Source: Opitutaceae bacterium (GTDB taxonomy: Bacteria > Verrucomicrobiota > Verrucomicrobiia > Opitutales > Opitutaceae). Taken from it: a DNA stretch of 42,206 bases. Of the stretch, positions 15,476 through 38,248 are shown in pieces. The translations under genes and the position numbers were made by a program. Position 1 is the stretch's first letter. Each line of letters opens with the position of its first letter. Location: positions 1-42,206 of the forward strand of contig JAUSID010000196.1 of NCBI GenBank assembly GCA_030648295.1, given 5' to 3'. The notes under the pieces were generated by a model. The model searched no databases, had not been told where the DNA came from, and was given only the letters and a program-made list of their open reading frames with translations.

Positions 15476-16798
15476 TTAGAACCACGTCGGCGCGACGACG
15501 GGAGTGGGATTGAAAATGAATTTAATCGGCATCTCCATCCGTGCGTTCACCGGGGTGCCGGCCTTCTTCCCTGCTTCGAATTTCCACTTCCTCACCGCCG
15601 CCACCGCAGATTCCGCGAACGCTGGGTTTGTGGCGCTCATAGCCTGCACATCCTGTGCGTCGCCGTTGGCGTCAATCACGAAGCTCAAGCGAACCTCGCC
15701 GGAAACCGCGAGTTGCCGCATTTCTGCCGGATATTCGGGTCGCGGTTGGAGTTTCGGTTTTGGCTGCTGCTCCAGCTGCGAAATCTCGTACACGGGCTGA
15801 TCCGCGCGCCAAGCCGGCTGACTCGTGCTGGCGAGTGATGTCGACCGGTTGCTCGGCTGCGTCCTTGTCGTACGCGCGGCGGCTTCGTCACGCAGTCTCG
15901 CAAGCTCCGCACGGTTCTCTCGCCATGAGCGGATTTCGGCCGCGGTCGTAGCGAGTCGGCTGACCTCCTGCCGAAGGAGTCCCGCCTCCTCACGGCTGAT
16001 ACGGGCGTGCACCAATTCGTCGCGCAGTTTCGCGTTTGTGTCCGCTTGGATGACGTAGCCGACGCCGCCGGCAGCAACAATCACCGCGGCAATTCCGAAC
16101 TGGAGTTTGGTGGCGCTCATGAAAGTCATCCACGCCGTCGTGGCGCAGCTGCTCGCGCCAGCCAGTGCAGCGCCGCTGACACTCGCGGCCAGACCCGCCG
16201 GTGCGGCGACGCTCACCGACTGGGCGAGCACGAGTCCCAGGGCCGCGGATGTCGAGGTGACGCCATCGCGGGCGAGCGTGGCATGGAGCTTGGCCAAGGC
16301 CCGTTCCACCCGCATCCGCGCGGCATTCTCGTTTAGCCGCAACTGGGCGCCCACTTCGGCAAATGAACGTCCGTTGAAAAACCGCAGTACGATCGCGTCG
16401 CGATCGTCGTCATCCAGCCCGCCGATGGCGCGGTCGAGCAACGGCCGCAGGCTCTCCCAATTGCCTTCGTCAGTGCCGGCCGCGGTTTCATTCATGGTAT
16501 GGGCCTCCCGTTCGCGTTTTCGCCGCCGCGATTCGGTGCGGACGGCGTCGATGGCCGCGTATTGCGTCGTGCGATAAAGCCAGCCCGCCAGCACCGGCCG
16601 TCGGGCCAGCGCCGTGGCTTTCCGGGCGAGCGACGTGAAAACGATCTGGACCACGTCCTTGGCGAGGTGCGTATCGCCGCCAACGTGACGTAACGCCACA
16701 GAGTACACCAAATCGATATGCCGCCGGACCAGCCCTGCGAATGCATCATCGGCTCGTTCGTCAATGTAGCGGCGGAGCAACTCGCTGTCTTCAGACAT
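15476..16798 (-). CDS. ECF sigma factor fused to transmembrane helix and TonB C-terminal domain
   Basis: A 440-residue protein with two functions that are normally separate. Residues about 17-95 are sigma-70 region 2 (FAGLVRRHIDLVYSVALRHV, AKDVVQIVF, PVLAGWLYRTTQYAAIDAVR). Residues about 118-175 are region 4 (DDDRDAIVLRFFNGRSFAEV, NENAARMRVERALAKL). A hydrophobic stretch follows, with a clear membrane helix at 232-250 (LQFGIAAVIVAAGGVGYVI) and a coiled coil at about 253-310. The C-terminus (353-428) is a TonB-like energy-transducer domain (YPAEMRQLAVSGEVRLSFVI, AVAAVRKWKFEAG). The ATG at 16798 begins the typical ECF N-terminus; in-frame sequence further upstream is unrelated. It is followed at 2 bases by a coiled-coil membrane protein and lies near several receptors. 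It may regulate from the membrane, coupling receptor occupancy to transcription, but this is inference. Confidence 0.88.
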   Translation of the reverse strand: MSEDSELLRRYIDERADDAFAGLVRRHIDLVYSVALRHVGGDTHLAKDVVQIVFTSLARKATALARRPVLAGWLYRTTQYAAIDAVRTESRRRKREREAHTMNETAAGTDEGNWESLRPLLDRAIGGLDDDDRDAIVLRFFNGRSFAEVGAQLRLNENAARMRVERALAKLHATLARDGVTSTSAALGLVLAQSVSVAAPAGLAASVSGAALAGASSCATTAWMTFMSATKLQFGIAAVIVAAGGVGYVIQADTNAKLRDELVHARISREEAGLLRQEVSRLATTAAEIRSWRENRAELARLRDEAAARTTRTQPSNRSTSLASTSQPAWRADQPVYEISQLEQQPKPKLQPRPEYPAEMRQLAVSGEVRLSFVIDANGDAQDVQAMSATNPAFAESAVAAVRKWKFEAGKKAGTPVNARMEMPIKFIFNPTPVVAPTWF

Positions 16799-17380
16799 GA
16801 TCAACCTATAGCCGGCAATGGATTGAAAACCGCACAAAAAAACCGCGGTCCGTCCGCCGGCTCCGTGGTGGCAGACCGCAAACCACGACTCGAATTCAGT
16901 GGAGCGTGCGATCACGTCCTCAACCGGGGCAATTATCGGCGACCCATTTTTCAGGCACCGGGTGTGGCGCAATCGTCAAGAAATCGGGGATCGAAAAACT
17001 CACTCTGGCCACGCCGATGAAACACACGACATCGGTTTCGATGGCGTGGCTCGCCCATCGGCTGCAAACGGGCGCAACCGACAGCGTCGATTCATTGGCT
17101 TCATCGATTCCGCGCAACCGGCGCCACTGAACACCCGGAATTCAAGGCGAAATTGTCCGGATTCCTAGCATGACCCTGCATGTGTCCCACCTTTTGGCAC
17201 GCGGGCGTCTGCGCCCTGCCGCTCGACATTCTCCCGCACGAGTTCCTTGCCATTGAGATAACCAATCGCTCCGTCGTCGACGCGCACAAGCATGATATCG
17301 CCTGCATTTCACCCAATCGATCCGGTGCGGCCTTTGCATCCCGCTTGAGGGTTGATGGGGAAATCTCCATCTCAAAAGAT
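16799..17380. other. Divergent region upstream of the sigma fusion and a receptor
   Basis: No repeat, hairpin or promoter stands out. The second half, 17180-17380, is in frame with the downstream receptor and could be translated if its ATG at 17180 is used, but the encoded segment resembles nothing and precedes the signal peptide. Confidence 0.35.
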
Positions 17381-25956: not shown

Positions 25957-26201
25957 CCAAGCCTTGGACACAGAGTGCCCAGGGCGGCGCAGCCGCAACC
26001 GAAGTAGCACGTGTTTCCGACTGATGCGCCGCGGAGCAGGGAGCAAGGAGCAGGAACAAATCGCCTGCCCATTCGCATCAGGCGCGTCCAAACACCTTGT
26101 GGCCTCCTGCTGCCTCTGTGTCCGAGCTCTGTGTCCTCTGTGACCCATGCCTTGGTTCGTCTGGCCATGAAATAACGGGCTAGTCGAGCGGCGAAGCGCG
26201 A
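25957..26201. other. Repeat-rich spacer downstream of the terpenoid operon
   Basis: It holds a repeat copy at 25967-26060 and a stretch rich in CTCTGTG/CACAGAG at about 26098-26150. No gene is supported. Confidence 0.5.
25967..26060 (-). repeat. Inverted copy of the repeat at 34841-34948
   Basis: Reverse-complemented, this matches 34841-34948 almost throughout, including GCGGCGCATCAGTCGGAAAC and CACGTGCTACTTCGGTTGCG. The copies differ mainly in the number of GCTCCCT-type units (two tandem units fewer here). The pair brackets the minus-strand operon. Confidence 0.75.
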
Positions 26202-27089
26202 TCACAGCGCCAGGTGCCCCAGCGCCAGCAGCCCGTAAAACGTGTATTCAGAATCCAGGTATTCGTCCGCCCAGTGGCCGTGGAATCCGCCCTCGGCGGT
26301 CCAGAGCGAGTCGACGAAATCGAGGCAGCGCTCGTGCACTTCGCTCGAAAGGCGACGATCGAGTGCGGCGAGCGCATGCAACGCCGTCGCGGTCGACAAC
26401 AGGTCGGGCAGCGGCGCGCGCGGCACGGCGAGAAAACCGCCCTGCGGGTGCGCCTGGCCGAGCAACCAGTCACCCACCGCATGGTTCACCGGGAAACCGA
26501 GATGGCGGATCAGGATCACCGCGCCCGCGGTGGCGTTCAGTGCGCCGACTGGCGTCCCGGGAATATTGCTCCACGCGCCGTCGGCTGACTCGAGTCGCTT
26601 GAAGGCCTGCACGAGCTGCAGCAGTTTCGGCGGCGTTCGCCCGAGATCTTCGTACGCTCCGAGCGCAACGAACGCACCGTACGCGGTGCCGTGCGCCGCG
26701 TTGCGATCGCCCTCGTAGCCGCCATCCGGTTTTCGATACTGCTCAATCCGCTCCAGCAACGCAGCGTCGAGCCCCGCGGGCATCCGCTCTATCCCGATGC
26801 TCGCCCAGCAGCGCGCCAGCGCCGAAAGGTGCACGAAATCCAGATCCTTTCCCTCACCAAAGGTGCGGAGGTACGCCTCCACCTGCTCCACCGGTGCGGG
26901 CACATCGACCGCCTGCATGCCGGCCAGCGTGAAAATCGTGTAGTATAAATCAGCGCGACCCTGACGATCGCGGCCGCCGCCTTCGGGTGTGAGCTGCCGG
27001 CGAAAAAACTCCCGCACCAGATCGGTCGAGTCGCCGAGTAACCGCGGCGACAGCCGCGCGACCTGGAGGAGTTGGAGCCGGAGACTCAA
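26202..27089 (-). CDS. Small prenyltransferase/squalene-oxidase-repeat protein
   Basis: A 295-residue alpha/alpha-toroid protein related to protein prenyltransferase beta subunits. DLYYTIFTLAGM (47-58) and DSEYTFYGLLALG (279-291) match the family. Four Gly-rich repeat turns are visible (PDGGYEG, ADGAWSN, PQGGFLA, AEGGFHG). The expected zinc-ligand pattern (D-x-C plus a late His) is not seen: the D229 region reads DLLST, and the last motif has Tyr where His is usual. Transferase activity is therefore doubtful, and binding of a polyprenyl chain or partner is as likely. It is last in the terpenoid operon, 24 bases after the polyprenyl synthase stop. The apparent start is TTG at 27089, directly after a perfect 8-bp hairpin; an internal GTG would shorten it by about 24 residues. 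Confidence 0.78.
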   Translation of the reverse strand: MSLRLQLLQVARLSPRLLGDSTDLVREFFRRQLTPEGGGRDRQGRADLYYTIFTLAGMQAVDVPAPVEQVEAYLRTFGEGKDLDFVHLSALARCWASIGIERMPAGLDAALLERIEQYRKPDGGYEGDRNAAHGTAYGAFVALGAYEDLGRTPPKLLQLVQAFKRLESADGAWSNIPGTPVGALNATAGAVILIRHLGFPVNHAVGDWLLGQAHPQGGFLAVPRAPLPDLLSTATALHALAALDRRLSSEVHERCLDFVDSLWTAEGGFHGHWADEYLDSEYTFYGLLALGHLAL

Positions 27090-27113
27090 GATTCGCCTCT
27101 GACGCGGCGAATC
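27090..27113 (-). promoter_or_regulatory. Hairpin filling the gap between the last two operon genes
   Basis: GATTCGCC and GGCGAATC form a perfect 8-bp stem with an 8-base loop. It occupies exactly the gap from the upstream stop codon to the TTG start of the prenyltransferase-repeat gene. It may limit translation or stabilise the processed mRNA. No U-run follows, so it is not a typical terminator. Confidence 0.4.
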
Positions 27114-28871
27114 TTAGGCCGACACGGCTTCGGCCGCCGGCGCCTTGAGCCGGTTGAACTGCTCCTGCTCCTTGCACCAGCCCTTGATTTCCACGTCATT
27201 GAAAATCTTCCCAATCGTCCGGCGCAGCAGCCCCTTGAGGTTGTGGTTCTGGAGGTCGTGCAGCGAACGAATCGCCTCCTCCTTGAAGGTGCCGAGCAGC
27301 ACCTCCGCCCGCGCCGTCGCGCCGAGTTCGGCATACAGCGCCTCGACCTGCGCGGGCGTCGCGCCCTCGGGCCAGACCCGCCGCCACAGCGAGGCCAGCA
27401 GTTCCTTCTGTTCGGCCTTCGCTTTTTCGTGGGCGACCGCCAGCAGCAGGCTCGGCCGGAGTCCCGCGATGTCGTTCGTCTCGCCGCCGAAACCCAAATC
27501 GCTGACGTCATCGCGAATCTGATACGCGACGCCGAGCGCCTCGCTGTACGTGCCGAGCACCTCGGATACCTCGTCATGCTGGTCGATCCCGGCGTACACC
27601 GCGCCGATCCGCAGCGCGACTTCGAACGCCGGCGCGGTCTTGCGCCGGAAAATGTCGAGCACCTCGGTCGGCTTGAGCGGCTCGGGCCGCCGCGCCCAGC
27701 AGAGTTCCGCGCCCTGGCCGCGACAAAGCTGCCGCTGGCCTTCGGCCGCAACCTGGAGCATGCGCACGCGCTGCTCGGCTGACACGCCGCAGGTGGCGAG
27801 CAGACGGTAGCCTTCGCCAATCAGCAGGTCGCCGACGTTCAGCGCCACCGCCACGCCGTGCTGTTCGTGCAGCGTTTTCTCGCCGTAGCGCAGCGCGTCG
27901 TTGTCCTCGATGTCGTCGTGGATCAATGAGGCCTTGTGAAAACATTCCACCGCCACGGCCACCTTGCGCAGGTCCGCCGGCAGCGGCGCGCTCGTATCGC
28001 CGTACAGGGCCTGATACACGGCGACGGTGAGGAATGGCCGCCAGCGTTTTCCGGCGCGGCCGAGCCATTCGCGGCCGATCCGCTCGGTCTCGCCCTCGGA
28101 CCGGCCCATGATCAGCTCGAGCGATCCGGGCGTGAACCAAAAGTCGACGTCATCGCGCAGCGCGCCGAGATCGAGCCGCCGCGTGCGATCCTCGCTGGTG
28201 AGGTGGATGTATTCCCACACCCAGTCGAGATCGACCGTGGTGTCGATGCAGTCGTCCTGTAACAGCGGAATGGCGACGCCGGGAATCGCCGCGGCCTCCA
28301 TGTACGGGAAGGCCTGCTCGAGCACGCTGAGGCAGCTCACGCCGACGATGGCGTCGATCTTTCCCGTCTGGATGATCGACATCACGACGGCGCTGCCTTC
28401 CGCCACGAGCACGGCATAACCGAGCCGTTCCGCCTCGGCCGTCAGATCCTGGATGGTGCAGAGCCCGCACTGCTTGCAGAGCAGGCCGAATTCGTCGAAC
28501 GGTGCCGGGCATTTGCTCTCGACGCGCATGCACTTCGGCAGCAGCAGCAGCCGGCGTTCGTACGGCACGGCCGCGAGCGACTCGCGCCACATTTCGTTGT
28601 TCAAGAGCACGCCGATGTAGTCCCGGTAAATCGGATCGACGCGCAACATCTCCACCAGCCGATCGGCATGAACCTTCAGTTCCGCCATTGGCACCGGCGG
28701 CACCGGATTGAAATCGACCACGTACTGGCGCACCGCCTCGAGCACGCGGGTCCGCTCGAATGCCGTCTGCGGGATGTTCTTCTTCGGCATGCGAAACCGC
28801 TGCTGCACCGCATGGCGCGGGACAACCAGCGGATCGAAGTGTGGGGCGGTCTTCAACGCGAGGGGTGGCAT
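27114..28871 (-). CDS. DUF116-polyprenyl synthase fusion
   Basis: A 585-residue two-domain protein. Residues about 40-225 form a DUF116 domain with a Cys cluster (Cys114, 121, 132, 135, 138, plus 180; see KCMRVESKCP and LCKQCGLC), which suggests an Fe-S cluster. Residues about 255-560 are an all-trans isoprenyl diphosphate synthase with GKRWRP (274-279), a first Asp-rich motif DDIED (319-323) and a second, DDVSD (454-458), both intact. The residue five before the first motif is Ala and the next is Ser (KASLIHDD), as in long-chain synthases such as IspB, instead of an aromatic residue as in farnesyl synthases. I infer a product longer than C20. The ATG at 28871 follows a C-rich leader; 63 bases separate it from the radical SAM stop. 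Another start at 28928 is possible. Confidence 0.9.
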   Translation of the reverse strand: MPPLALKTAPHFDPLVVPRHAVQQRFRMPKKNIPQTAFERTRVLEAVRQYVVDFNPVPPVPMAELKVHADRLVEMLRVDPIYRDYIGVLLNNEMWRESLAAVPYERRLLLLPKCMRVESKCPAPFDEFGLLCKQCGLCTIQDLTAEAERLGYAVLVAEGSAVVMSIIQTGKIDAIVGVSCLSVLEQAFPYMEAAAIPGVAIPLLQDDCIDTTVDLDWVWEYIHLTSEDRTRRLDLGALRDDVDFWFTPGSLELIMGRSEGETERIGREWLGRAGKRWRPFLTVAVYQALYGDTSAPLPADLRKVAVAVECFHKASLIHDDIEDNDALRYGEKTLHEQHGVAVALNVGDLLIGEGYRLLATCGVSAEQRVRMLQVAAEGQRQLCRGQGAELCWARRPEPLKPTEVLDIFRRKTAPAFEVALRIGAVYAGIDQHDEVSEVLGTYSEALGVAYQIRDDVSDLGFGGETNDIAGLRPSLLLAVAHEKAKAEQKELLASLWRRVWPEGATPAQVEALYAELGATARAEVLLGTFKEEAIRSLHDLQNHNLKGLLRRTIGKIFNDVEIKGWCKEQEQFNRLKAPAAEAVSA

Positions 28872-28934
28872 GTGGGGGAAAGTTGAGGAGCGAACGGGCG
28901 TTCTTTCAAGGACGACGCGGCGTGGCAAGGGCCT

Positions 28935-30260
28935 TCAGCCGCTGCAGCGCGGCTGCGAGTCGCCCACCAGTTCCGGGGCCGGCACGGGCGGCGTCGCGCC
29001 ATTCAGCACCGGTTGCGCGAGCTCGTCGCGGAGTTGACGCGCCCTGGCCTCGGCATCGAAGGCCACGTTGCGATAGGCGTTGAAATCGTGAAACCAGTAT
29101 TTTTTCGCCAGCCGATACATCCAGTGCTTTTCCGGCACCTCCTCGCCCGGCAGCCACTGGCTGAAGCGCGGCGTAATCGCATCCAGCTCCGCCATCGCCG
29201 TGCCGCGCGTCGTCGTATCGCGGGCGCCGTGCTTGAGGACGATTTCCCTGATCAGATCCGGACGCTCCATCACGACGCAACCACGCGTGTGCCGCGCGCT
29301 GAGCTCGCGAAAATCCTTCAGGAATGCGCTGCTCCGCATGGTCTCAAAAAGTCCGCGCCGGTCATGGATGTCCTCCACTGCAAACTGAATGATCGGGCAC
29401 GGCTCGATGTCGCCCTTCGGCCCGATGTGGTGGCTGATCCCGGTCGACATCGGGCACAGCGCCTGGCCGTCGTGATCGTAGTAGGCGTCGATGATCGCGA
29501 TCGGGACCGTGGCGCGCATCTCGACGACGAAGCGCCGGATCCGGACGAGCTGCTCCGGCGAGAGCGCCAGATCGAAGTTCGGCTTCGGGCCCACCGGTCG
29601 GTACCCGTGATACCACGCGTAGTGGACGCCGCGCCGGATCAATTCGCGCAGCCAGTCCTCGGTGAGCAGCTCCTCGATGTTGCTGCGGCAGACGCTGGTG
29701 GCGACGCCCGTGAGCAGCCCGGCCTTCACCGAGTTCTCCAGCCCGCGTAAGGTGCGCGCGAATACGTCCTTTTTCCCGCGCCGCTCGTCGCTGACCATCT
29801 CGCGGCCCTCGATCGAGATCAGCGGGGTGGAGTTGCCGAGTTCGCGCAGCCGGTTCGCCGTTTTCTCGGTGATCAGCTGACCGTTGGTGAAGATCTGGAA
29901 ATAGCAGTCGGGGTGCGCCGCGAGCAGGTCGAGCAGCTGCGGGTGCATGAACGGCTCGCCGCCGAGAATGCCGAAGAACGAGTTTCCGTGCCGCTTGGCG
30001 TCGAGGATCGTGCGGTTCAGCGCGTCGAGATCGATCGCGTCCTTCGACTCGACGTCGACCCAGCAGCCCTGGCAGCGCAGGTTGCAGGTGTTGAGGATCG
30101 AGAGGTAGAGGAACGGCGGGAAGTATTCGCCGCGTTTGATGCGGCGCTTGAACCGTTCGACCGAGAGCATGCCCTTCCAGCCGAAGTTCCAGGCGAACTT
30201 CCAAAGGCAGCGCGGATCCGCGGAGCGCAGGGTGCGGAATAGCATCTGTGGAACGATCAT
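28935..30260 (-). CDS. Radical SAM enzyme with C-terminal Cys-rich extension
   Basis: A 441-residue radical S-adenosylmethionine enzyme. CNLRCQGC (Cys59, 63, 66) binds the SAM-coordinating [4Fe-4S] cluster, and GGEP (100-103) is the SAM-binding motif. Later Cys269, Cys288 and Cys328 (ALCPMSTG, GDIEPCPI, TRGCVVME) could hold an auxiliary SPASM-like cluster. It has some general likeness to hopanoid radical SAM enzymes such as HpnH, but I cannot assign it there. Its place between a two-cluster ferredoxin and a polyprenyl synthase points to a lipid or terpenoid substrate and local electron supply. The ATG at 30260 overlaps the stop of the four-helix-bundle gene (ATGA), so translation is coupled to that inserted cassette. 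Confidence 0.9.
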   Translation of the reverse strand: MIVPQMLFRTLRSADPRCLWKFAWNFGWKGMLSVERFKRRIKRGEYFPPFLYLSILNTCNLRCQGCWVDVESKDAIDLDALNRTILDAKRHGNSFFGILGGEPFMHPQLLDLLAAHPDCYFQIFTNGQLITEKTANRLRELGNSTPLISIEGREMVSDERRGKKDVFARTLRGLENSVKAGLLTGVATSVCRSNIEELLTEDWLRELIRRGVHYAWYHGYRPVGPKPNFDLALSPEQLVRIRRFVVEMRATVPIAIIDAYYDHDGQALCPMSTGISHHIGPKGDIEPCPIIQFAVEDIHDRRGLFETMRSSAFLKDFRELSARHTRGCVVMERPDLIREIVLKHGARDTTTRGTAMAELDAITPRFSQWLPGEEVPEKHWMYRLAKKYWFHDFNAYRNVAFDAEARARQLRDELAQPVLNGATPPVPAPELVGDSQPRCSG

Positions 30261-30694
30261 GGCGCCGAGGACGTCGCCAAACGCTCAACGCTTAACGCTG
30301 AACGCTTAACGCTTAAGTTTTGGCGGGCCGGTGCGTGGTTGGCCTGGGCGGTGCGGATGCTTGCGGCGAAAATGCGAATGAGTTCGTCGGCTTCCTTGAG
30401 TATGTCCGCCAAAAGCGCTGGCTTCTCAACCAAGGGCGTGCGTTCGACGAGGCGAAGCCAGCGACGAGCTTCGCGAAGCTCTTTGTAGCAGACTTTCAAC
30501 TTGTGCACGAAATCCTGCCGCGACTCGGCTCCTTCCGCTTCCCCGTGATTTCCGTCAGGCGATGTGCCGGCACGAAGAAGTTGATCGGCGACGTGCGTCC
30601 CTGCTCGCGAACGGTGCATGGATTCCGTGACGCGAACAACGCGCACGGCGAATTCCAGCAACCGATCCTCCAAATCATACTTCGTCACGTGCAC
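30257..30694 (-). CDS. Four-helix-bundle protein carried by an inserted cassette
   Basis: A 145-residue protein of the four-helix-bundle family (PF05635/TIGR02436, related to proteins encoded in 23S rRNA intervening sequences). Typical parts are LEFAVRVVRVTESM, GTHVADQLLRAGTSPDGNHG, FVHKLKVCYKELREARRWLR and an IRIFAASI C-terminal helix. It starts at a GTG at 30694. The last ~20 residues are encoded by the left inverted repeat and by host sequence up to the radical SAM start, so that tail is probably not part of the fold. The biochemical function of the family is unknown. It is the only gene between the two 38-bp inverted ends. It has no evident role in the terpenoid pathway and is best viewed as cargo. 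Confidence 0.8.
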   Translation of the reverse strand: MHVTKYDLEDRLLEFAVRVVRVTESMHRSRAGTHVADQLLRAGTSPDGNHGEAEGAESRQDFVHKLKVCYKELREARRWLRLVERTPLVEKPALLADILKEADELIRIFAASIRTAQANHAPARQNLSVKRSALSVERLATSSAP

Positions 30695-30732
30695 TTGAGC
30701 GTTAAGCGTTAAACGTTATGCGTTGAGCGTTG
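30279..30732. mobile_element. 454-bp cassette with 38-bp inverted ends and a four-helix-bundle gene
   Basis: The left end (30279-30316) and right end (30694-30732) are imperfect inverted repeats, 34 of 38 bases identical, built from GCGTTAA-like heptamers (AACGCTCAACGC, AACGCTTAACGCT). The cassette separates the ferredoxin and radical SAM genes. The right end supplies the ferredoxin stop codon, and the left end is read through by the four-helix-bundle gene. No transposase and no obvious target duplication were found, so movement must be in trans or ancient. Confidence 0.7.
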
Positions 30733-31585
30733 CCCGGGATTGGTTGGCCAAGGCGGCCTGGGCCTTCGCCTTCGCTTCCTCGGCGCGGCGTAGGATTTCC
30801 TCGGGACTCGGCAGACTCATCAGCACCTCGGGAGGAATGTCGCCCATCTGCACGAGCTTCGTCAGGCACTTCTGCCGCTCGTTGAGCGCCTTGCCCGAAT
30901 CGCGCTCCTTCGAGAACCGCGACTGCGCGCGTTCGCTGCGCATCCGCAGCATCGAGTAAATGTCGCCGCCAAGCAGCGCCGAGATGTCGACCTTCATTTT
31001 CTCCCGCTGGAGGTCCTCGTCCTTGACCACGTCGCCGTTGATCGGGCCGGCCTTGTATTTCGGAAACATGATCGCCGCCTCGGGGCAGACGCGGGAGCAC
31101 GCCGGGCAGTTGGTTTTGCAGTTGTCCTGGTTCTGCACCTGGATGTGCCCTTCGCGATCGGCGCCGTAGACGCCGAACAGGCAGAAGCTCAGGCATTGCA
31201 TGCAATTCGTGCACCGGTCGTAATCGATCACCGGGAACCACGGTTTCCAGCCGCCGTGCTGCACCGCCTGTTTTTCGGCGCGCACCGCCTCGACCGCGCC
31301 GACGATTTGGTCGTCGGTGAATCCCTTCACGTTGGTGAATCGAACCCGGGTCGGATCCGTCGCCGCCGCGGCCGCCGCATCCACTCCGTTCTCAAAACGG
31401 CCCAGCACGAGTGCCGGGATGTCGTCCGCCGGCGCGGTGCGGCCGCCTTCGCCCACGCGCGTGAGCGCGAAGCCCTGGTTCAGCAGCCGCGACACCGCCT
31501 GGAAACGCTGCTCGCCCTCGAAGCGGTCCGCATCGTTGCCCTCGTAGAAGACGACTCGCAGGTAGGTTTGATCGCGGAGGGGCAT
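30716..31585 (-). CDS. Two-cluster ferredoxin-type protein
   Basis: A 289-residue electron-transfer protein. The central region has CTNCMQCLSFC (Cys125, 128, 131, 135) and CKTNCPACSRVCP (Cys156, 160, 163, 167), enough for two [4Fe-4S] clusters. The N-terminal 110 residues form an extra domain with no clear match (YLRVVFYEGNDADRFEGEQR). The C-terminal part is charged and helical. The last codons (ATLNA and stop) lie in the inverted repeat of the inserted cassette, so the original C-terminus may have been slightly longer. It probably donates electrons to the radical SAM enzyme downstream. The ATG at 31585 follows a C-rich leader, and the 185-bp dispersed repeat lies only 17 bases upstream. Confidence 0.87.
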   Translation of the reverse strand: MPLRDQTYLRVVFYEGNDADRFEGEQRFQAVSRLLNQGFALTRVGEGGRTAPADDIPALVLGRFENGVDAAAAAATDPTRVRFTNVKGFTDDQIVGAVEAVRAEKQAVQHGGWKPWFPVIDYDRCTNCMQCLSFCLFGVYGADREGHIQVQNQDNCKTNCPACSRVCPEAAIMFPKYKAGPINGDVVKDEDLQREKMKVDISALLGGDIYSMLRMRSERAQSRFSKERDSGKALNERQKCLTKLVQMGDIPPEVLMSLPSPEEILRRAEEAKAKAQAALANQSRATLNA

Positions 31586-31602
31586 GGGGGTTAGAGATCG
31601 AA

Positions 31603-31785
31603 GCCGGAACAATTCAGTTCAACCGCGAATAGACGCCAATTCACGCGAATGGAGAGGGCGTCTGGGGGAGCATGGAAACGATCAACCAAACGGTGACCAT
31701 GGTTCACTTGGGCAATCTTCCCCTCCTTCTCTGGAATTTGCGTCCATTCGCGTTCATTCGCGGTTGTCCACTGAATCGATACGGC
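31603..31785 (-). repeat. Inverted copy 1 of the ~185-bp element
   Basis: The sequence is the near-exact reverse complement of 34261-34448, with a few scattered differences. Each copy is also self-complementary at its ends (CAATTCAGTTCAACCGCGAAT against ATTCGCGGTTGTCC-type sequence). The outermost bases GCCGGAACAATTCAGTT match the family at 8260 and 20618. It lies in the operon between the hdrA-like and ferredoxin genes. The adjoining 31786-31898 holds no convincing gene. Confidence 0.85.
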
Positions 31786-31898
31786 TAAGCCAGGCGTGGC
31801 AGCCGGGGTGACGAGGCTGAAGAAACTGCACTTTGCAAGTCCCAGCCTCCTTGCGTCGGCGGCTACGACGGTCGGGGAAATTGTCTGCATGTCGGAGC

Positions 31899-32381
31899 TC
31901 AAGACGCCGTCCGTTCGGCCGAGGCCGGGTTGGTCGGAGCGGAGGCCGGAGCGGATTCAGCTTCCAACGGCAGATCTTTCACCTGCGCCAGACCCGGCGT
32001 GGACCCGCTGGCCGTCGCCTTTCCCGCCGGCAGATTCGGCTGCAAGTCCGTCGCCAGCAGCCGCTCCACGACTTGCGGCGCGGCGAGTTCACGCATGTTG
32101 AGCACTTCGGTCTGCGATGCGGTGAGCGGCGCGCCAGAGGACGCGAAGAGCCATTTCACGGCGCGCGGATAACAGGCCGCGATTTTCACGTTGGCTCCGC
32201 AGGCCAGCCGTTTAAGCGCGGGATCTTTTCGCGCCGACATTTCGCACAGATCCGCGACGGCCTCGAATGAGCGGCCCGAGTCCAGCAGCTGGCGCAACAC
32301 GGCCGCCTTCACCGCCGGATCGATGATCTGCGCGTACGTGCAGTTGCAATACAGGATGCCCGGGCTCTCGGATTTCGTCAT
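31899..32381 (-). CDS. Cys-rich protein resembling the N-terminus of HdrA
   Basis: A 160-residue protein. Cys12 and Cys14 (LYCNCTYA), Cys46 (ADLCEMSA) and Cys70 (IAACYPRAVKWLF) follow the layout of the N-terminal Fe-S module of heterodisulfide reductase HdrA/QmoA, where a C-x-C start, a middle Cys and the ACSPR-x-x-E-x-x-F motif occur in the same order. No FAD domain follows; instead there is a Pro/Ala/Ser-rich tail. This is a tentative, by-eye likeness. Fused or adjacent HdrB/HdrC genes are absent. The ATG at 32381 follows a C-rich leader (CCCACCCC). The CobW-type gene lies 93 bases upstream on the same strand. Confidence 0.6.
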   Translation of the reverse strand: MTKSESPGILYCNCTYAQIIDPAVKAAVLRQLLDSGRSFEAVADLCEMSARKDPALKRLACGANVKIAACYPRAVKWLFASSGAPLTASQTEVLNMRELAAPQVVERLLATDLQPNLPAGKATASGSTPGLAQVKDLPLEAESAPASAPTNPASAERTAS

Positions 32382-32474
32382 GGGGTGGGATTGCCGGCGC
32401 GCCGGCGTGATCGCGGCACGGCGGGGCGGAGACAAAGCCGCACTCTGGTTTCGGGTCAAGCGTGCATCGTGGCT

Positions 32475-33629
32475 TCAGGCCGGCGTGAGCAGCCGGTGGG
32501 TGGGCTGCGGCTTGCCGGGTCGGAAAAACTCCAGGTGATCGAGCCTCGACTGCATGCCCGCAAACGGCGTCGGCAGAGCGGCGACGGACGCCTCGACCGC
32601 CGCCTTCAGCGCTTCCGGCGCCGCCTCGGCCCGCAGGTTGAGGATTAACTGGCCCGCGGCGCAGCCCTGCTCGAGCCGCAGGGAAAGCTCCGGCACGAAA
32701 TCGCTGCGCACGAGATTCACGGCCGCGATGTCGTTGAGCCCGCCATCGGGACTGAAGGTCATTTTGAGGTGCGCCACCTCCGCTCCCGCCTGCGTGAGCC
32801 GGCCCTGAATATCGCAGGCGAGCCACTCGATCACCGCGTTGGCGTCGAATTCCCTGGTGCCCGTGAGCTGCACGGTCGCATTGAGCCAGCCGAGCCGGGC
32901 CTCGCCTTCGGCATACACGACATAATCAACCTGCATCACTTCGCGCGCGATTTGCTGCCGCGACATGATCCGGCTGAACCACGCATCGAGCCCATCGCCA
33001 GTCCGCGCCGAAACGCTCAGCACCTCCGCGCGCGGGAACTCGCGCTGCAACGTTTCCTGCAGCCGCGCCAGCTCTGCGGCGGAAATCAGATCGCGTTTGT
33101 TGATCATGATCAGATCGGCCTCCTCGAGCTGCTTCCGGTAAATGTACACCACCTTGTCCGAGAACGCCCGTCCGGCGCCGCCGTCACCGAGTCCGAAAAT
33201 CCGCAGCGCGCGCTGGGGATCGACCAGCACGCTAAGCGGCGCGATGGTGAAGCGGTCGCTGTAGATTCGCCGCAGCGGATAAGTCACCGTCGCCACGAGA
33301 TCGGTGCAGCTGCCAACCGGCTCGGCGATGAACACGTCGGGCGAACCCGCTGCCGTCAGCCGGCCGGCCGCCTCGGTCAGCGAATTGAACCGGCAGCAGA
33401 AACAACCGCCGGGAATTTCCTCCGTCGCAAATCCGCGCGCCCGCAGCACGGAGGTGTCGACGAGCCCGCTGCCCTGGTCGTTGGTGATCAGTCCGACCCG
33501 CAGCCCGCGTTCGTGCAGCGTCGCCGCCAGGCGCGCGACGGCGGTCGTTTTGCCGGCGCCAAGAAATCCGCCGATCATGATGTATCGGGCGGGCGTCGGG
33601 GCGACGGAAGCGGCGGCAGTCGGGGGCAT
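32475..33629 (-). CDS. CobW/COG0523-type GTPase
   Basis: A 384-residue G3E-family P-loop GTPase, probably a metallochaperone or metal-centre assembly factor. It has Walker A GGFLGAGKTT (20-29), the COG0523 metal motif C-F-C-C (76-79), the EPVGSC segment (from 103) and the guanine-specificity motif NKRD (177-180). The C-terminal half is less typical, with only a weak CobW_C-like region. It lies between the lipoyl-carrier gene (28 bases upstream) and the hdrA-like gene. Delivery of a metal (Zn, Fe or Co) to an operon enzyme is therefore the likely role. The ATG at 33629 is preceded by TGTCCCACCG; in-frame sequence further upstream overlaps the gcvH-like gene and is unlikely. Confidence 0.88.
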   Translation of the reverse strand: MPPTAAASVAPTPARYIMIGGFLGAGKTTAVARLAATLHERGLRVGLITNDQGSGLVDTSVLRARGFATEEIPGGCFCCRFNSLTEAAGRLTAAGSPDVFIAEPVGSCTDLVATVTYPLRRIYSDRFTIAPLSVLVDPQRALRIFGLGDGGAGRAFSDKVVYIYRKQLEEADLIMINKRDLISAAELARLQETLQREFPRAEVLSVSARTGDGLDAWFSRIMSRQQIAREVMQVDYVVYAEGEARLGWLNATVQLTGTREFDANAVIEWLACDIQGRLTQAGAEVAHLKMTFSPDGGLNDIAAVNLVRSDFVPELSLRLEQGCAAGQLILNLRAEAAPEALKAAVEASVAALPTPFAGMQSRLDHLEFFRPGKPQPTHRLLTPA

Positions 33630-33657
33630 CGGTGGGACAGGGCGAAGCAGGCGGGGA

Positions 33658-34131
33658 TTAGTGGGGAGTCGGATCTTTTTGCTGGGCGAGCATCCGGTCA
33701 ATGGTGGCGTTGAGCAGGTTCACGTAATCACGGACAGGCACGCAGGTTTCGTCGGGTTTACCAGCGGCCCGATAGAGCCAGCCGGCGGTGTAGGGCGCCT
33801 CATGGATTTGTTCCAGGTGGCCTTGGAGTGACGGATTGCCGCCCTGAAAGATGCCGTCGACCACGCAATAAATGTCGCTGATCGCCTTGAACCCCTCGAT
33901 CCAGCCCAGAATCGTGCCCGGTTTGACGGCGGTGCCGGCGGGAATTTCGAACGATTGATCGACCAATTCGCCGAGCATCCGCACCGCGAATTTCGAAAAT
34001 CCCACCCGCCACACCCCGTCGGATTCGGGCGCGAGCCAGTAGTGCGAGGGCGAGTAAAGCGCGTCGGCCGGCAGGTGGGTGACGAAGTTCGAGCGCTTGA
34101 AGAAAATGGTCTTGGCGGGCGCCTCTTCCAT
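33658..34131 (-). CDS. GcvH-like lipoyl carrier protein
   Basis: A 157-residue protein of the glycine-cleavage H family, longer than the usual 125-130. The lipoylation site is conserved: Lys82 in GWIEGFKAISDIYCVVDG. The N-terminal part (YSPSHYWLAPESDGVWRVGF, SKFAVRMLGE) also matches the fold. No gcvT, gcvP or lipoate ligase genes are near, so glycine cleavage is unlikely to be its job. H-like carriers also serve sulfur metabolism (LbpA of the sHdr system), and an HdrA-like gene is in this operon. I infer a dedicated lipoyl shuttle of electrons, sulfur or a carbon unit. It is the first gene of the minus-strand operon; the ATG at 34131 follows a C-rich leader. Confidence 0.88.
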   Translation of the reverse strand: MEEAPAKTIFFKRSNFVTHLPADALYSPSHYWLAPESDGVWRVGFSKFAVRMLGELVDQSFEIPAGTAVKPGTILGWIEGFKAISDIYCVVDGIFQGGNPSLQGHLEQIHEAPYTAGWLYRAAGKPDETCVPVRDYVNLLNATIDRMLAQQKDPTPH

Positions 34132-34260
34132 GAGGGTGGGCGAACTCAGCCGTATTGCGGCCGGTTGGCAAGCAGCGTGTCGGACTTACCTTCGGCGCTT
34201 TTTGGCATCGGTAATTGCTGCGGTTTCGGCCGAGCCATTCCGATAGGCTGCAGAGCCTGA

Positions 34261-34448
34261 GCCGTATCGATTCAGAGGACAACCGCGAATGAACGCGAAT
34301 GGACGCAAATTCCAGAGGAGGAGGGGGAGGATTGCCCAAGTGAAATCATGGTCACCGTTTGGTTAATCGTTTCCATGCTTCCCTAGGACGCCCTCTCCAT
34401 TCGCGTGAATTGGCGTCTATTCGCGGTTGAACTGAATTGTTCCGGCTG
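34261..34448 (+). repeat. Inverted copy 2 of the ~185-bp element
   Basis: Partner of 31603-31785 in opposite orientation. It begins GCCGTATCGATTCAGAGGAC and ends with ACTGAATTGTTCCGGCTGAG. Confidence 0.85.
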
Positions 34449-34598
34449 AGACATAGAGGACTACAGAGGTCGAGCCGGAGGACACGGAGTAAGGCACTTC
34501 TCTGCGACCTCTCCCGCCGCGCTCTGTCTGACTATTCGAGTGTAGCGACCAACATGTTTGTCTTAACCGGAGATGAAAGCGAACATCCAACCCTTTGC

Positions 34599-34697
34599 AC
34601 AGGAGGTCGCAGAGGCAGCAGAGAGAAAACCAACGAGCCCAGATCCAGATCCAGATCCAGATCCCTTCCGATCTCTGCTACCTCTGCTTCCTCCTGT
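34599..34697. repeat. Inverted repeat, ACAGGAG...CAGAGA family, copy 2
   Basis: Arms 34599-34624 and 34672-34697 are reverse complements with 3 mismatches in 26. It is the same family as 44-111, with a different loop. Confidence 0.7.
34641..34664. repeat. Tandem hexamer (AGATCC)x4
   Basis: Four perfect AGATCC units lie in the loop of the inverted repeat at 34599-34697. Copy number could vary by slippage. Confidence 0.8.
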
Positions 34698-34840
34698 AAA
34701 ATCCTTCCGTTTGGTTTGGAGCTGTTCGCCGCAGGCGAACCTCTTGTTCCGAGCGCAGTCTCGGGAAAAGGCCGTACTACTATCCCTGAGAATGCTGTCG
34801 GTCTGCGTGCAAATCTCATCTCGTACAACAAGCCGGCGGT

Positions 34841-34948
34841 TTGTTCCTGCTCCCTGCTCCCTGCTCCTTGCTCCCTGCTCCGCGGCGCATCAGTCGGAAA
34901 CACGTGCTACTTCGGTTGCGGCTGCGCCGCCCCGGAATCTCTGTGTCG
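34841..34948 (+). repeat. Inverted copy of the repeat at 25967-26060
   Basis: It starts with TTGTTCCTGC and several CTCCCTG/CTCCTTG units, then shares a long block with the other copy. About 175 bases separate it from the cysteine desulfurase start. Confidence 0.75.
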
Positions 34949-35088
34949 ATACAAACCGCTTCAGGGCAAGAATCACTACTATCACTGCCCGGCCGAGGCG
35001 GACGCCCTTTGGTTGCGGCTGCGGTGCGGCGTTGGGAAACATCCGGCTTCCGCCTGAAACCTGACGGACCCACGCTCGTGCTCTCGAC

Positions 35089-35115
35089 TTGACTCACCGT
35101 TCCGGCACATACCAT
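35089..35115 (+). promoter_or_regulatory. Possible promoter of the cysteine desulfurase gene
   Basis: TTGACT (35089-35094) and TACCAT (35110-35115) are separated by 15 bases, short for sigma-70. The implied transcription start would be almost at the ATG (35124), giving a leaderless or near-leaderless mRNA. Confidence 0.25.
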
Positions 35116-35123
35116 CCGCCGCC

Positions 35124-36278
35124 ATGGTTTACCTCGACCACAATGCCAGTTCACCGCTGCTTCCGGCGGCGCGCGCGGCGTGGCTCGAGGCCGAGGAACA
35201 GTTTCCCGGCAATCCGTCCAGCCCGCACCGGCTGGGCGCACGCGCCGACACTGCGCTGGATCAGGCGCGTCAGCGGCTGGGTGCGCTGCTCGGCTGCTCG
35301 CCGCTCGACCTCGTGTGGATGAGCGGCGCCACGGAGGCATGCAACGCGGTGTTGCACCACGCGGCTTCGGTTGCTGCAGCGGACTCGCCCGTTTGGATCA
35401 GTGCGATCGAGCATCCCGCGGTGCTGGAGTCGGCGCGGCATTATTTCCGCGAGCGCGTCGAACTGATCCCGGTGAATCGCGAGGGCGTCGTGTCGCTTGA
35501 CTGGGTGCGGCAGCGATTCGATCGGCAGCGGCCTGCACTCATCGCGGTCATGGCGGCAAACAACGAGACGGGAGTCCTCCAGAGCTGGCGGCAGCTGCAC
35601 GAGTCGTGCGCGGAGCGCGGTGTTCCTTTTTTTTGCGACGCCACGCAATGGTGCGGCCGGTTGCCGGCGGCAGGGCTTGGCGGCTGCGAGTTCGTGGCCG
35701 GCAGCGCCCACAAATTCGGCGGACCGCGCGGCGTGGGATTCCTGAAAGTGGCCGGGGGTTCGGCGCTGCATCCGTTTTTTCGCGGCGGCAAACAGCAGGA
35801 TGGCCGCCGCGCCGGCACCGAGAATGTGGCGGGCGTGATGGCGATGCTCGCCGCGCTCGAGTGGTGCGAACAGCAGATCGCCGCGGGCGCGCCTGCATCT
35901 CGTGGTGCGGCGCGTGACCGTTTCGAGCGGGAACTTCAATCCGCACTTCCCGGCGTGACGCTCAATGGGCATGGACAGGATCGGCTTTGGAATACGATGA
36001 GTGTGACGATGCCGGAGGTGGATTGCCGGCACCGCTGGGTCGTGAAACTCGACAAGGCCGGGTTCGCGGTCTCGACGGGGTCGGCATGCTCGAGCGGGTC
36101 GGAGCACCCGTCGCACGTGTTGACGGCGATGGGACTGACGACAGCGGAAGCGGCGCGCGCGCTGCGTTTCAGCGCTGGCTGGCTGACGAAGGATGCGGAG
36201 TGGGACGAATTGCTGAAGGCGATTATCCGGATTCACCGCGAGCTTGAGCCGGAACAGGCGAAGGCGAGCCGCGCGTGA
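35124..36278 (+). CDS. Cysteine desulfurase (NifS/IscS family)
   Basis: A 384-residue PLP enzyme that takes sulfur from cysteine as a protein-bound persulfide. Key residues are present: VYLDHNASSPL at the start, SGATEACN, His97 (IEHPAV), NNETG (146-150), D172-A-T-Q, the PLP lysine Lys197 in SAHKFGGPRG and the catalytic Cys322 in STGSACSSGSEHPSHVL. The flexible SACSSG loop is of the NifS/IscS type. It overlaps the downstream cyclase gene by 4 bases (GTGA), so the two are translated together. Its place in a locus with several Fe-S proteins suggests dedicated cluster assembly; sulfur delivery to a lipoyl or terpenoid product is an alternative. No iscU-like scaffold is in the window. Confidence 0.93.
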   Translation: MVYLDHNASSPLLPAARAAWLEAEEQFPGNPSSPHRLGARADTALDQARQRLGALLGCSPLDLVWMSGATEACNAVLHHAASVAAADSPVWISAIEHPAVLESARHYFRERVELIPVNREGVVSLDWVRQRFDRQRPALIAVMAANNETGVLQSWRQLHESCAERGVPFFCDATQWCGRLPAAGLGGCEFVAGSAHKFGGPRGVGFLKVAGGSALHPFFRGGKQQDGRRAGTENVAGVMAMLAALEWCEQQIAAGAPASRGAARDRFERELQSALPGVTLNGHGQDRLWNTMSVTMPEVDCRHRWVVKLDKAGFAVSTGSACSSGSEHPSHVLTAMGLTTAEAARALRFSAGWLTKDAEWDELLKAIIRIHRELEPEQAKASRA

Positions 36279-38248
36279 ACGGATCGGCACCGATGCATGA
36301 AACACTCGCAACGGGAGCGGCGGTACCCGCAACCTGCGGGTTGTTCGACGATGAGCTGCGGTCGCGGCTGGCCGACGCGCACAGCGCGGCGATGGCCGCG
36401 TTGATCCGCGAGCGGAATTCCGCCGGTTGGTGGACGGGCGAACTTTCCTCGAGCGCGCTGTCGACTGCCACCGCGGTGACGGCGCTCACGCTTTACTCGC
36501 GCGGCGTCGCTGCCGAAGCGGCGCGACTGCGTGAGCTGATTCAGCGGGGATACGAGTGGCTCGGAAAAAACCAGAACGCGGATGGCGGGTGGGGGGACAC
36601 GAAGCGGAGTATTTCGAACATCAGCACCACGACGCTGGTGTGGGCGGCCTTCGGTCTGCACCCGACGTCCGACGCCGCGACGATGTCGGCCATCACTGCC
36701 GCCGAAGAATGGCTCTCGCGCGCGGCGGGATCGCTCGAGCCGCGAGACCTCGTCCGCGCCATCGAGGGCCGCTACGGCCAGGATCGGACGTTCTCGATTC
36801 CGATTCTGACGCTGGCCGCATTGTGCGGCCGTCTCGGTAAAGGCCGCGACGGATGGCGGCATGTGCGGCAGCTTCCGTTCGAGCTGGCGGCGCTGCCGCA
36901 GCGATGGTTCGCGGCGCTCCAGTTGCCCGTCGTGAGCTACGCGCTGCCGGCGCTGATCGCGATCGGCCAGGTGCGGCACGGCTTGAGGCCCACGCGCAAT
37001 CCATTGTTTCGCGTCATCCGCGATCGCTGTCGTGCGCGCACGCTCGAGAAACTCGGCCGGCTCCAACCGGAAAACGGCGGATTTCTGGAGGCGGCGCCGC
37101 TGACGAGTTTCGTGACCATGAGCCTCGCCGCGCTGGGATTGTACGAGCACAGCGTCGTGCAACGCGGCGTCGCTTTTCTGGAGGCGTCGGCGCGGCCTGA
37201 CGGCAGCTGGCCGATCGATACGAACCTCGCGACGTGGGTGACGACGTTGTCGGTAAACGCGCTGGAGCCCGTAGCGGCGAGCGCCAGCGAGCCGACGGCC
37301 GGCCACTCGCTCACGCTCGTAGCCACGGCTCACGAGTCGTCCGCGCTGTCGAGCGCGGACCGCGCCGCGATTCGCGACTGGCTGCTGCGACAGCAGGGTC
37401 GGACGGAGCATCCATATACGCTCGCGGCGCCGGGCGGCTGGGCTTGGACGGATTTGCCTGGTGGTGTGCCTGACGCGGACGATACCGCGGGCGCACTCCT
37501 CGCGCTGCACCGGCTCGGCGCTAACGATCCGCAGGTGCGTTCGGCCGCCGACGCGGGAGTTGGCTGGTTGCTTGGGCTGCAAAATCGCGACGGCGGCATA
37601 CCGACGTTTTGCCGCGGGTGGGGGAAGTTGCCGTTCGATCGCAGCAGCCCCGATCTCACGGCACATGCCATTCGCGCGTGGCTGGTGTGGTGCGAGTTTC
37701 TGCCGGAGCCGCGACAGCGCGCACTCGCGTCCGCGCTCGCAAGGGCCGCTCGTTTCCTGTGCGCGAATCGGCGGGCTGATGGCGCGTGGGTGCCGTTGTG
37801 GTTTGGACACGAAGAGGATTCCGCCGACGAAAATCCGCTTTATGGCACCGCGCGCGTCCTGCCCGCCTTGGGCGAACTCGAGCTGGCCGGGCACCGGAAA
37901 GTCACCGCTGCGCTCGATCGCGCGCAGCAGTGGCTGGTGGCGCGCCAGAATTCCGACGGCGGCTGGAGCGGTGCGCGGGGCGCAAAGTCGTCCGTGGAGG
38001 AATCCGGCGTTGCGCTCGAAGCGCTCGCGTCGGCGTGGCGGCGCACGTCGATGACGGGCGAGCATCGCGCCGCGCTGCGCGTCGCAATCGAACGCGGCGC
38101 GCGATGGTTGGTCACGGCAATGGAGAGCGGGCAGTGGCGCAATTCGTCGCCGATCGGATTGTACTTCGCCAAGCTCTGGTACCACGAGCGGCTGTACCCG
38201 CTGATCTTCGCGACCGCCGCGTTGCAGCGATTGAACAAGATTCGTTGA
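36275..38248 (+). CDS. Class II triterpene cyclase-like protein (squalene-hopene cyclase family)
   Basis: A 657-residue protein of the squalene-hopene cyclase family, close to the usual 630-650. The protonating motif D400-A-D-D-T-A is intact. QW-type repeats are visible (QNADGGWGD, QNRDGGIPTF, QNSDGGWSG, ARPDGSWPID, HPYTLAAPGGWAW). It should protonate and cyclise a linear polyprenyl chain at the membrane. No squalene synthase (hpnC/D/E or sqs) genes are present. The polyprenyl synthase in the divergent operon has long-chain features, so the substrate may be a regular polyprenyl diphosphate or alcohol. The GTG at 36275 overlaps the desulfurase stop; an ATG at 36293 would remove 6 residues. The gene ends 562 bases before the next gene. 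Confidence 0.9.
   Translation: MNGSAPMHETLATGAAVPATCGLFDDELRSRLADAHSAAMAALIRERNSAGWWTGELSSSALSTATAVTALTLYSRGVAAEAARLRELIQRGYEWLGKNQNADGGWGDTKRSISNISTTTLVWAAFGLHPTSDAATMSAITAAEEWLSRAAGSLEPRDLVRAIEGRYGQDRTFSIPILTLAALCGRLGKGRDGWRHVRQLPFELAALPQRWFAALQLPVVSYALPALIAIGQVRHGLRPTRNPLFRVIRDRCRARTLEKLGRLQPENGGFLEAAPLTSFVTMSLAALGLYEHSVVQRGVAFLEASARPDGSWPIDTNLATWVTTLSVNALEPVAASASEPTAGHSLTLVATAHESSALSSADRAAIRDWLLRQQGRTEHPYTLAAPGGWAWTDLPGGVPDADDTAGALLALHRLGANDPQVRSAADAGVGWLLGLQNRDGGIPTFCRGWGKLPFDRSSPDLTAHAIRAWLVWCEFLPEPRQRALASALARAARFLCANRRADGAWVPLWFGHEEDSADENPLYGTARVLPALGELELAGHRKVTAALDRAQQWLVARQNSDGGWSGARGAKSSVEESGVALEALASAWRRTSMTGEHRAALRVAIERGARWLVTAMESGQWRNSSPIGLYFAKLWYHERLYPLIFATAALQRLNKIR

Follow-up and report, generated by a model that had tools for sequence, protein, structure and literature searches.

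What does a bacterium make with a terpene cyclase and a polyprenyl diphosphate synthase that are encoded among genes for iron-sulfur, radical SAM and lipoyl chemistry? The question is raised by a locus of an Opitutaceae bacterium, located at positions 26202..38248 of a 42,206-nucleotide stretch of DNA (positions 1 to 42,206 of contig JAUSID010000196.1, assembly GCA_030648295.1), the whole of which is called the window here. The answer that we favor, with moderate confidence, is a dedicated pathway, shared by Verrucomicrobiota and Planctomycetota, in which a polyprenyl diphosphate and not squalene is the starting point for a cyclised isoprenoid, with the steps and helper functions outlined below. 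The product would probably be a membrane lipid or a lipid precursor.

The ORF list placed all nine genes named in the first-pass annotation at the positions given there, and curated domain matches (Pfam, NCBIfam) were obtained for eight of them, the HdrA-N-like gene being the exception. A tenth frame had been overlooked: positions 30257..30694 of the minus strand encode a four-helix-bundle protein of the 23S_rRNA_IVP family (TIGR02436, 77 bits against a cut-off of 24). Among the 80 named loci examined, an IVP gene adjoins the genes around the DUF116-polyprenyl synthase fusion only in L062 and L065, and we judge it to be an insertion and not a pathway member. A weaker IVP match in L137 lies apart from the fusion set. 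The IVP cassette carries 39-nt inverted repeats, and repeats flank the segment with the HdrA-N-like, CobW and GcvH genes in the window.

The fusion itself lies at 27114..28928 of the minus strand, where, as first proposed, a single frame contains both DUF116 (residues 91-240; Pfam, 126 bits) and a trans-polyprenyl diphosphate synthase (residues 286-516; polyprenyl_synt, 151 bits). Its true start is likely downstream of the TTG, and the database copy is 585 aa long. The synthase domain has the two Asp-rich motifs of its class (DDIED and DDVSD in the window) as well as the fold, with an AlphaFold prediction (mean pLDDT 80.8) that resembles 1wy0 (Foldseek E 4e-12) and also other prenyl synthases. 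The fusion signature is HKASLIHDDIED-xxxx-RY. Small residues at -5 and -4 before the first Asp motif are the pattern of long-chain prenyl synthases, and Ala and Ser stand at -5/-4 in 119 of the 120 parsed fusion sequences (121 were collected, and L047, which could not be parsed, was left out). Trans-polyprenyl synthases are also expected to have Arg-Arg after the first Asp motif, the second Arg binding the diphosphate of IPP, and this pair is replaced by Arg-Tyr in 117 of the 120. Arg-Arg is present in four aligned solved enzymes, and two further synthases of the window's genome have it as well (in a third, the motif was not caught). Several second-phylum fusions have N-D-x-x-D in place of the second Asp motif or give no match to it, and L169 is one of the relatives with Asn there. 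The remaining synthase motifs are similar to those of an ordinary elongase, and motifs and predicted fold together suggest that the fusion would act in prenyl chain elongation.

Across 16 aligned sequences, seven cysteines of the DUF116 portion are invariant. Modeled alone, it is predicted to form an alpha/beta fold (pLDDT 82.7), for which structure comparison found no clear solved relative. Excerpts of one paper on archaeal COG1852/DUF116 proteins describe them as cysteine-rich, with a CxxCxxC motif and predicted metal binding, and as combining a globular domain with two membrane segments at the N terminus (PMC5898192). The domain described here is likewise cysteine-rich, but differs from what those excerpts describe in being fused to a prenyl synthase.

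Perhaps the fusion is not a normal elongase at all, but joins prenyl chains in pairs, or links one such chain to some other acceptor, providing the cyclase with a squalene-like or mixed substrate. The Tyr that so consistently replaces the second Arg, the invariant cysteines of DUF116, and the presence of a DxDD cyclase without PF00494 (see below) are all in keeping with coupling; on the other side are the otherwise ordinary elongase motifs, the putative nature of a DUF116 Fe-S cluster, and a predicted fold with no clear relative. We consider such coupling unlikely. A more specific form of the idea is that the fusion represents a new prenyl-coupling class, in which a cysteine-rich domain and a changed IPP site would allow it to join prenyl chains reductively. 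Using electrons from the HdrA-N-like, ferredoxin and lipoyl proteins, it would replace squalene synthase and feed the cyclase and the radical SAM enzyme, leading to a polycyclic lipid in two phyla. This version seems to us rather unlikely.

The preferred reading, in which the fusion supplies a polyprenyl diphosphate, calls for an enzyme that closes rings. The candidate is a class II squalene-hopene-like cyclase at 36275..38248 of the plus strand (PF13243 SQHop_cyclase_C, 121 bits; N domain, 52 bits), whose ORF shares 4 nt with that of the preceding desulfurase, the overlap that the first-pass annotation had reported. It has a DxDD motif within the two-domain toroid (SQHop N and C domains) of class II terpene cyclases. 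Its PDADDT aligns with DVDDTA of squalene-hopene cyclase (SHC), and a His aligns with that of the SHC motif TAH; among the 41 cyclase homologues in the neighborhoods described below, DxDD is found in all 41 and TAH in 38. Judging by these residues, the enzyme would close rings via protonation at DxDD. Scores were well short of the cut-offs of both the hopene cyclase model (86.8 vs 431.1 bits) and the squalene cyclase model (120 vs 322.7 bits). A second, smaller toroid is encoded at 26202..27089 of the minus strand (PF00432 prenyltransferase repeat; Pfam, 41.7 bits). This single-domain alpha-alpha toroid protein does not have the DxDD motif, and a sequence search at E 0.01 found no solved relative; it is possibly a partner of the cyclase.

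The radical SAM enzyme, at 28935..30260 of the minus strand, has the Radical_SAM domain (Pfam PF04055, 55 bits) and the CxxxCxxC motif of the superfamily, the latter present in 60 of 60 neighborhood homologues. In 49 sequences C269, C288 and C328 are invariant and C191 nearly so, and these extra cysteines are possible ligands of auxiliary clusters. The HpnH model matches the protein at 39.3 bits, below its cut-off of 225. The models for NirJ and AhbC, which are heme-modifying enzymes, are among the best scorers, all far below cut-off. Co-inheritance with the other genes suggests that the enzyme tailors the product.

Is the substrate of the cyclase squalene, as in hopanoid synthesis? The first-pass annotation had reported that squalene-forming genes were absent, and this held for the window's genome and for most fusion genomes. 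PF00494 (squalene/phytoene synthases), which we take to include the known squalene-forming enzymes, was not found in the window's genome (G000; 96.6% complete), which is one of 54 of 64 fusion genomes that lack it; the other ten have it. DxDD cyclases are present in genomes without PF00494, and the family is absent from 47 of the 57 genomes with fusion, cyclase and radical SAM enzyme. The absence is not specific to the pathway and in part characterizes the phylum as a whole, considering that PF00494 is rare in control genomes as well (15 of 64 without the fusion). Even so, its lack in 54 of 64 fusion genomes indicates that squalene is probably not the substrate.

These results bear directly on a hopanoid-type reading, in which an unrecognised synthase supplies the cyclase with squalene, and the radical SAM enzyme is a divergent HpnH. 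The locus does resemble the hopanoid pathway (HpnCDE/SQS, SHC, HpnH) in combining an SHC-like cyclase, with DxDD and the aligned His, and a radical SAM enzyme with a weak HpnH match, and ten fusion genomes do have PF00494. It differs in that 54 of 64 carriers lack the family and that cyclase and radical SAM enzyme both score far below the curated cut-offs. We regard a hopanoid-type pathway as quite unlikely.

Synthesis from a polyprenyl diphosphate, the reading that we prefer, has a precedent in Bacillus. DUF2600, which we take to be the YtpB family, was not found in any of the 64 fusion genomes, while it was found in B. subtilis as a positive control. According to excerpts of two papers, the C35 sesquarterpene route (HepST-YtpB-SqhC) starts from a polyprenyl diphosphate and SqhC closes the rings (PMC7839719, PMC11708026). 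To the extent covered by those excerpts, the likeness consists of the polyprenyl diphosphate start, rather than squalene, and ring closure by a cyclase. The Bacillus route differs in having a DUF2600 tetraprenyl-curcumene synthase, which produces the substrate that SqhC cyclises, and the present locus in having a synthase fused to DUF116 along with the radical SAM, ferredoxin, HdrA-N-like, lipoyl, CobW and desulfurase genes.

Are these genes truly inherited together? A search at E 1e-60 across 387 genomes of the window's phylum recovered the fusion from 64, although not from G010, the one other genome of the same genus listed among them. We compared 120 neighborhoods of up to 20 kb around the fusion, drawn from 20 of these 64 genomes, 80 named loci (the best 80 of at least 556 in the genome collection) and 20 second-phylum regions; some end at contig edges, a few are, judging by length, the same contig twice (L034/L123, L126/L177), and L070 and L071 look alike. 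Homologues scoring above 60 bits were present for the ferredoxin in 66, the radical SAM enzyme in 62, the toroid protein in 59, the cyclase and GcvH in 41 each, CobW in 37 and NifS in 18 of the 120. Fusion, ferredoxin, radical SAM enzyme, toroid protein and cyclase occur together in 28, of which 18 also have GcvH and CobW. The complete set of nine genes is found in ten neighborhoods from two phyla, all ten with the HdrA-N-like motif, and in many others (e.g. L034, L037, L132) the fusion stands alone.

Unlinked genes are not necessarily absent, since searches of whole genomes found the cyclase in 61 and the radical SAM enzyme, often unlinked, in 60 of the 64 fusion genomes. Among 64 random non-fusion genomes from the same sample, searched for the radical SAM enzyme with a query that matched in fusion genomes, the numbers were one and zero, respectively. 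Counted by genus, the cyclase is present in 40/43 vs 1/49 and the radical SAM enzyme in 40/43 vs 0/49, with Fisher p values, which ignore phylogeny, of <1e-30 for genomes and <1e-20 for genera. The radical SAM enzyme was also found, in many cases unlinked, in all 16 searched genomes of named loci, picked mostly where the fusion seemed alone or distant; in Chthoniobacter flavus Ellin428 the match is partial (residues 59-412 of 441) and lies apart from the locus where fusion, toroid protein and cyclase are grouped. Distances between fusion sequences correlate with those of the radical SAM, ferredoxin and toroid proteins (r 0.92-0.93) and CobW (0.87), and less strongly with those of the cyclase (r 0.63), again ignoring phylogeny.

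The nine genes are a co-inherited set in many Verrucomicrobiota and Planctomycetota, above chance. The single co-inherited pathway of the first-pass annotation is borne out for fusion, cyclase and radical SAM enzyme, and the finding that it had named as counting against it, a fusion mostly without cyclase or radical SAM enzyme, was not what genome-wide searches returned. Co-occurrence of the other eight families, which it had proposed to score, was less constant for GcvH, CobW and NifS, which, as counted within neighborhoods, are accessory or encoded elsewhere in the genome. Taken as a whole, the earlier interpretation is partly supported, its lipid product and oxygen-independent modification being putative. 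Could an Fe-S maturation set simply have landed beside an unrelated terpene set? The inconstancy of desulfurase and CobW, and the repeats around the HdrA-N-like/CobW/GcvH segment, might be read that way, but order and content recur in two phyla, and the genome-wide co-occurrence of unlinked genes contradicts chance for fusion, cyclase and radical SAM enzyme. We consider chance proximity highly improbable.

The second phylum deserves separate comment. The fusion was found in 62 of its 294 genomes, including G401, the genome of locus L131 (a Phycisphaerales record), whose phylum is Planctomycetota by the tree labels. Gene order and content recur there as well as in other families, and all nine genes are present in L131, L178, L180 and L183. 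In a midpoint-rooted tree built from a choice of 55 rows, a branch with full support sets apart 11 of the 21 second-phylum rows, while the other ten lie among or beside Verrucomicrobiota rows, which likely reflects, in part, transfer or metagenome misbinning.

What would the Fe-S and lipoyl proteins contribute? The HdrA-N-like small protein (31899..32459, minus strand) was named by resemblance, and searches of Pfam and NCBIfam at E 0.1 found neither an HdrA domain nor any other curated family in it. Four cysteines are invariant in the family (38, 40, 72 and 96; CxC..C..C); among 120 listed relatives, one bears the source name 'heterodisulfide reductase subunit A-like polyferredoxin', and the remaining displayed names read 'hypothetical protein'. 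The database copy is 160 aa, and the true start is probably inside the called ORF. The neighboring 2x[4Fe-4S] ferredoxin-like protein (30716..31612, minus strand) has two 4Fe-4S motifs, the second of them unusual, with eight cysteines invariant in 49 sequences and extensions at both termini. By motif, the HdrA-N-like protein is present in 46 of the 120 neighborhoods, and the fact that it is separate in 36 and fused to the ferredoxin in ten, never both, suggests that the two act together. A genome-wide profile search matched 46 of the 64 fusion genomes, in many within the ferredoxin frame, and gave no match in the other 18.

The GcvH-like lipoyl carrier (33658..34131, minus strand; Pfam PF01597 GCV_H, 60 bits) has the lipoyl Lys in EGFKA and scores below the GcvH equivalog cut-off (59.5 vs 115.9 bits); of the 41 neighborhood homologues, 33 have EG[FY]KA and 39 have E[GS].K. 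Gene fusion and conserved cysteines are consistent with an electron chain that would run via lipoyl, HdrA-N-like and ferredoxin proteins. In sHdr-LbpA sulfur oxidation, a lipoyl carrier protein works with HdrA-type Fe-S proteins; in the present case a scan of the ten proteins found no HdrB/C-type or full HdrA domain, and the partners are terpene enzymes. The CobW-type GTPase (32475..33701, minus strand; Pfam PF02492, 90 bits) has the metal motif GGCFCC, which is found in 37 of 37 homologues, with GAGKT in 32 of 37. The NifS-like cysteine desulfurase (35124..36278, plus strand; PF00266 Aminotran_5, 163 bits) scores 274 bits with TIGR03402, below the cut-off of 531. Its catalytic Cys322 is invariant in 16 sequences, and G[ST]AC occurs in 15 of 18 neighborhood homologues. 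Sulfur delivery is the weakest part of the scheme, because NifS is present in just 18 of the 120 neighborhoods.

These accessory genes invite another reading, that the locus makes the cyclised prenyl tail of a quinone, cofactor or mixed molecule, with the lipoyl, sulfur and metal genes serving the head group. Lipoyl carrier, desulfurase and CobW do look like head-group chemistry, as do the NirJ and AhbC scores of the radical SAM enzyme, but no recurring aromatic or other head-group gene was seen in 44 neighborhoods; the larger extra families there resembled, by eye, the nine genes read in antisense or in a shifted frame, and the others occurred in 4 loci. A prenyl tail of this kind appears improbable.

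The dedicated cyclised-isoprenoid pathway that we favor would then proceed as follows. The fusion would first make a medium or long prenyl diphosphate, which the DxDD cyclase would protonate and close into rings, perhaps with help from the small toroid protein, and the radical SAM enzyme would then tailor the chain by adding or rearranging a group. The HdrA-N-like protein and ferredoxin would form a single electron-transfer unit, probably reduced via the lipoyl carrier, and CobW and the desulfurase could serve in maturation of a metal or Fe-S site, or in sulfur supply. We infer the order of steps, the chain length, the product, the radical SAM step and the roles of the lipoyl, CobW, desulfurase and DUF116 components.

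No description of the nine-gene set was found in the literature searched, and source annotations are piecemeal: squalene-hopene cyclase, GGPP synthase, hypothetical protein. Excerpts of a soil survey report that most Verrucomicrobiota clusters are terpenes, and that an Opitutales cluster containing a squalene-hopene cyclase was assigned to hopanoids (PMC8692599); as far as those excerpts describe it, this cluster may be the present gene set. If the proposed pathway is correct, a cyclase gene in either phylum could no longer be taken at face value as a hopanoid gene, and DUF116 would gain a biochemical setting that is testable in a cultured strain. It would also mean a new class of cyclic lipids in bacteria of lakes, groundwater and soil.

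Two copies of an 88-nt inverted repeat (25967-26054 and 34860-34947; 95% identity) lie close to either end of the minus-strand unit in the window. Within that unit, at 30257-30735, a gene for a four-helix protein of the 23S rRNA IVP type separates the ferredoxin gene from the radical SAM gene, and inverted repeats of 39 nt lie close to both of its ends. An insertion resembling this one is found at two other loci, L062 and L065, and in L065 the 39-nt repeat pair occurs a further time, near 10687-10789.

Elsewhere in the window, in a single minus-strand frame of 498 aa (15476-16972), a TonB C-terminal domain comes after regions 2 and 4 of an ECF sigma factor, an unusual combination. Among the 64 random control genomes of the phylum, which lack a detected DUF116-polyprenyl synthase fusion, only G247 (f30; loci L150/L151) carries the cyclase.

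The HdrA-N-like/CobW/GcvH segment of the window is bracketed by two inverted copies of a 188-nt hairpin element (31602-31789 and 34257-34447; 94% identity), with a single-strand folding z-score of -5. This element looks like a small dispersed repeat.
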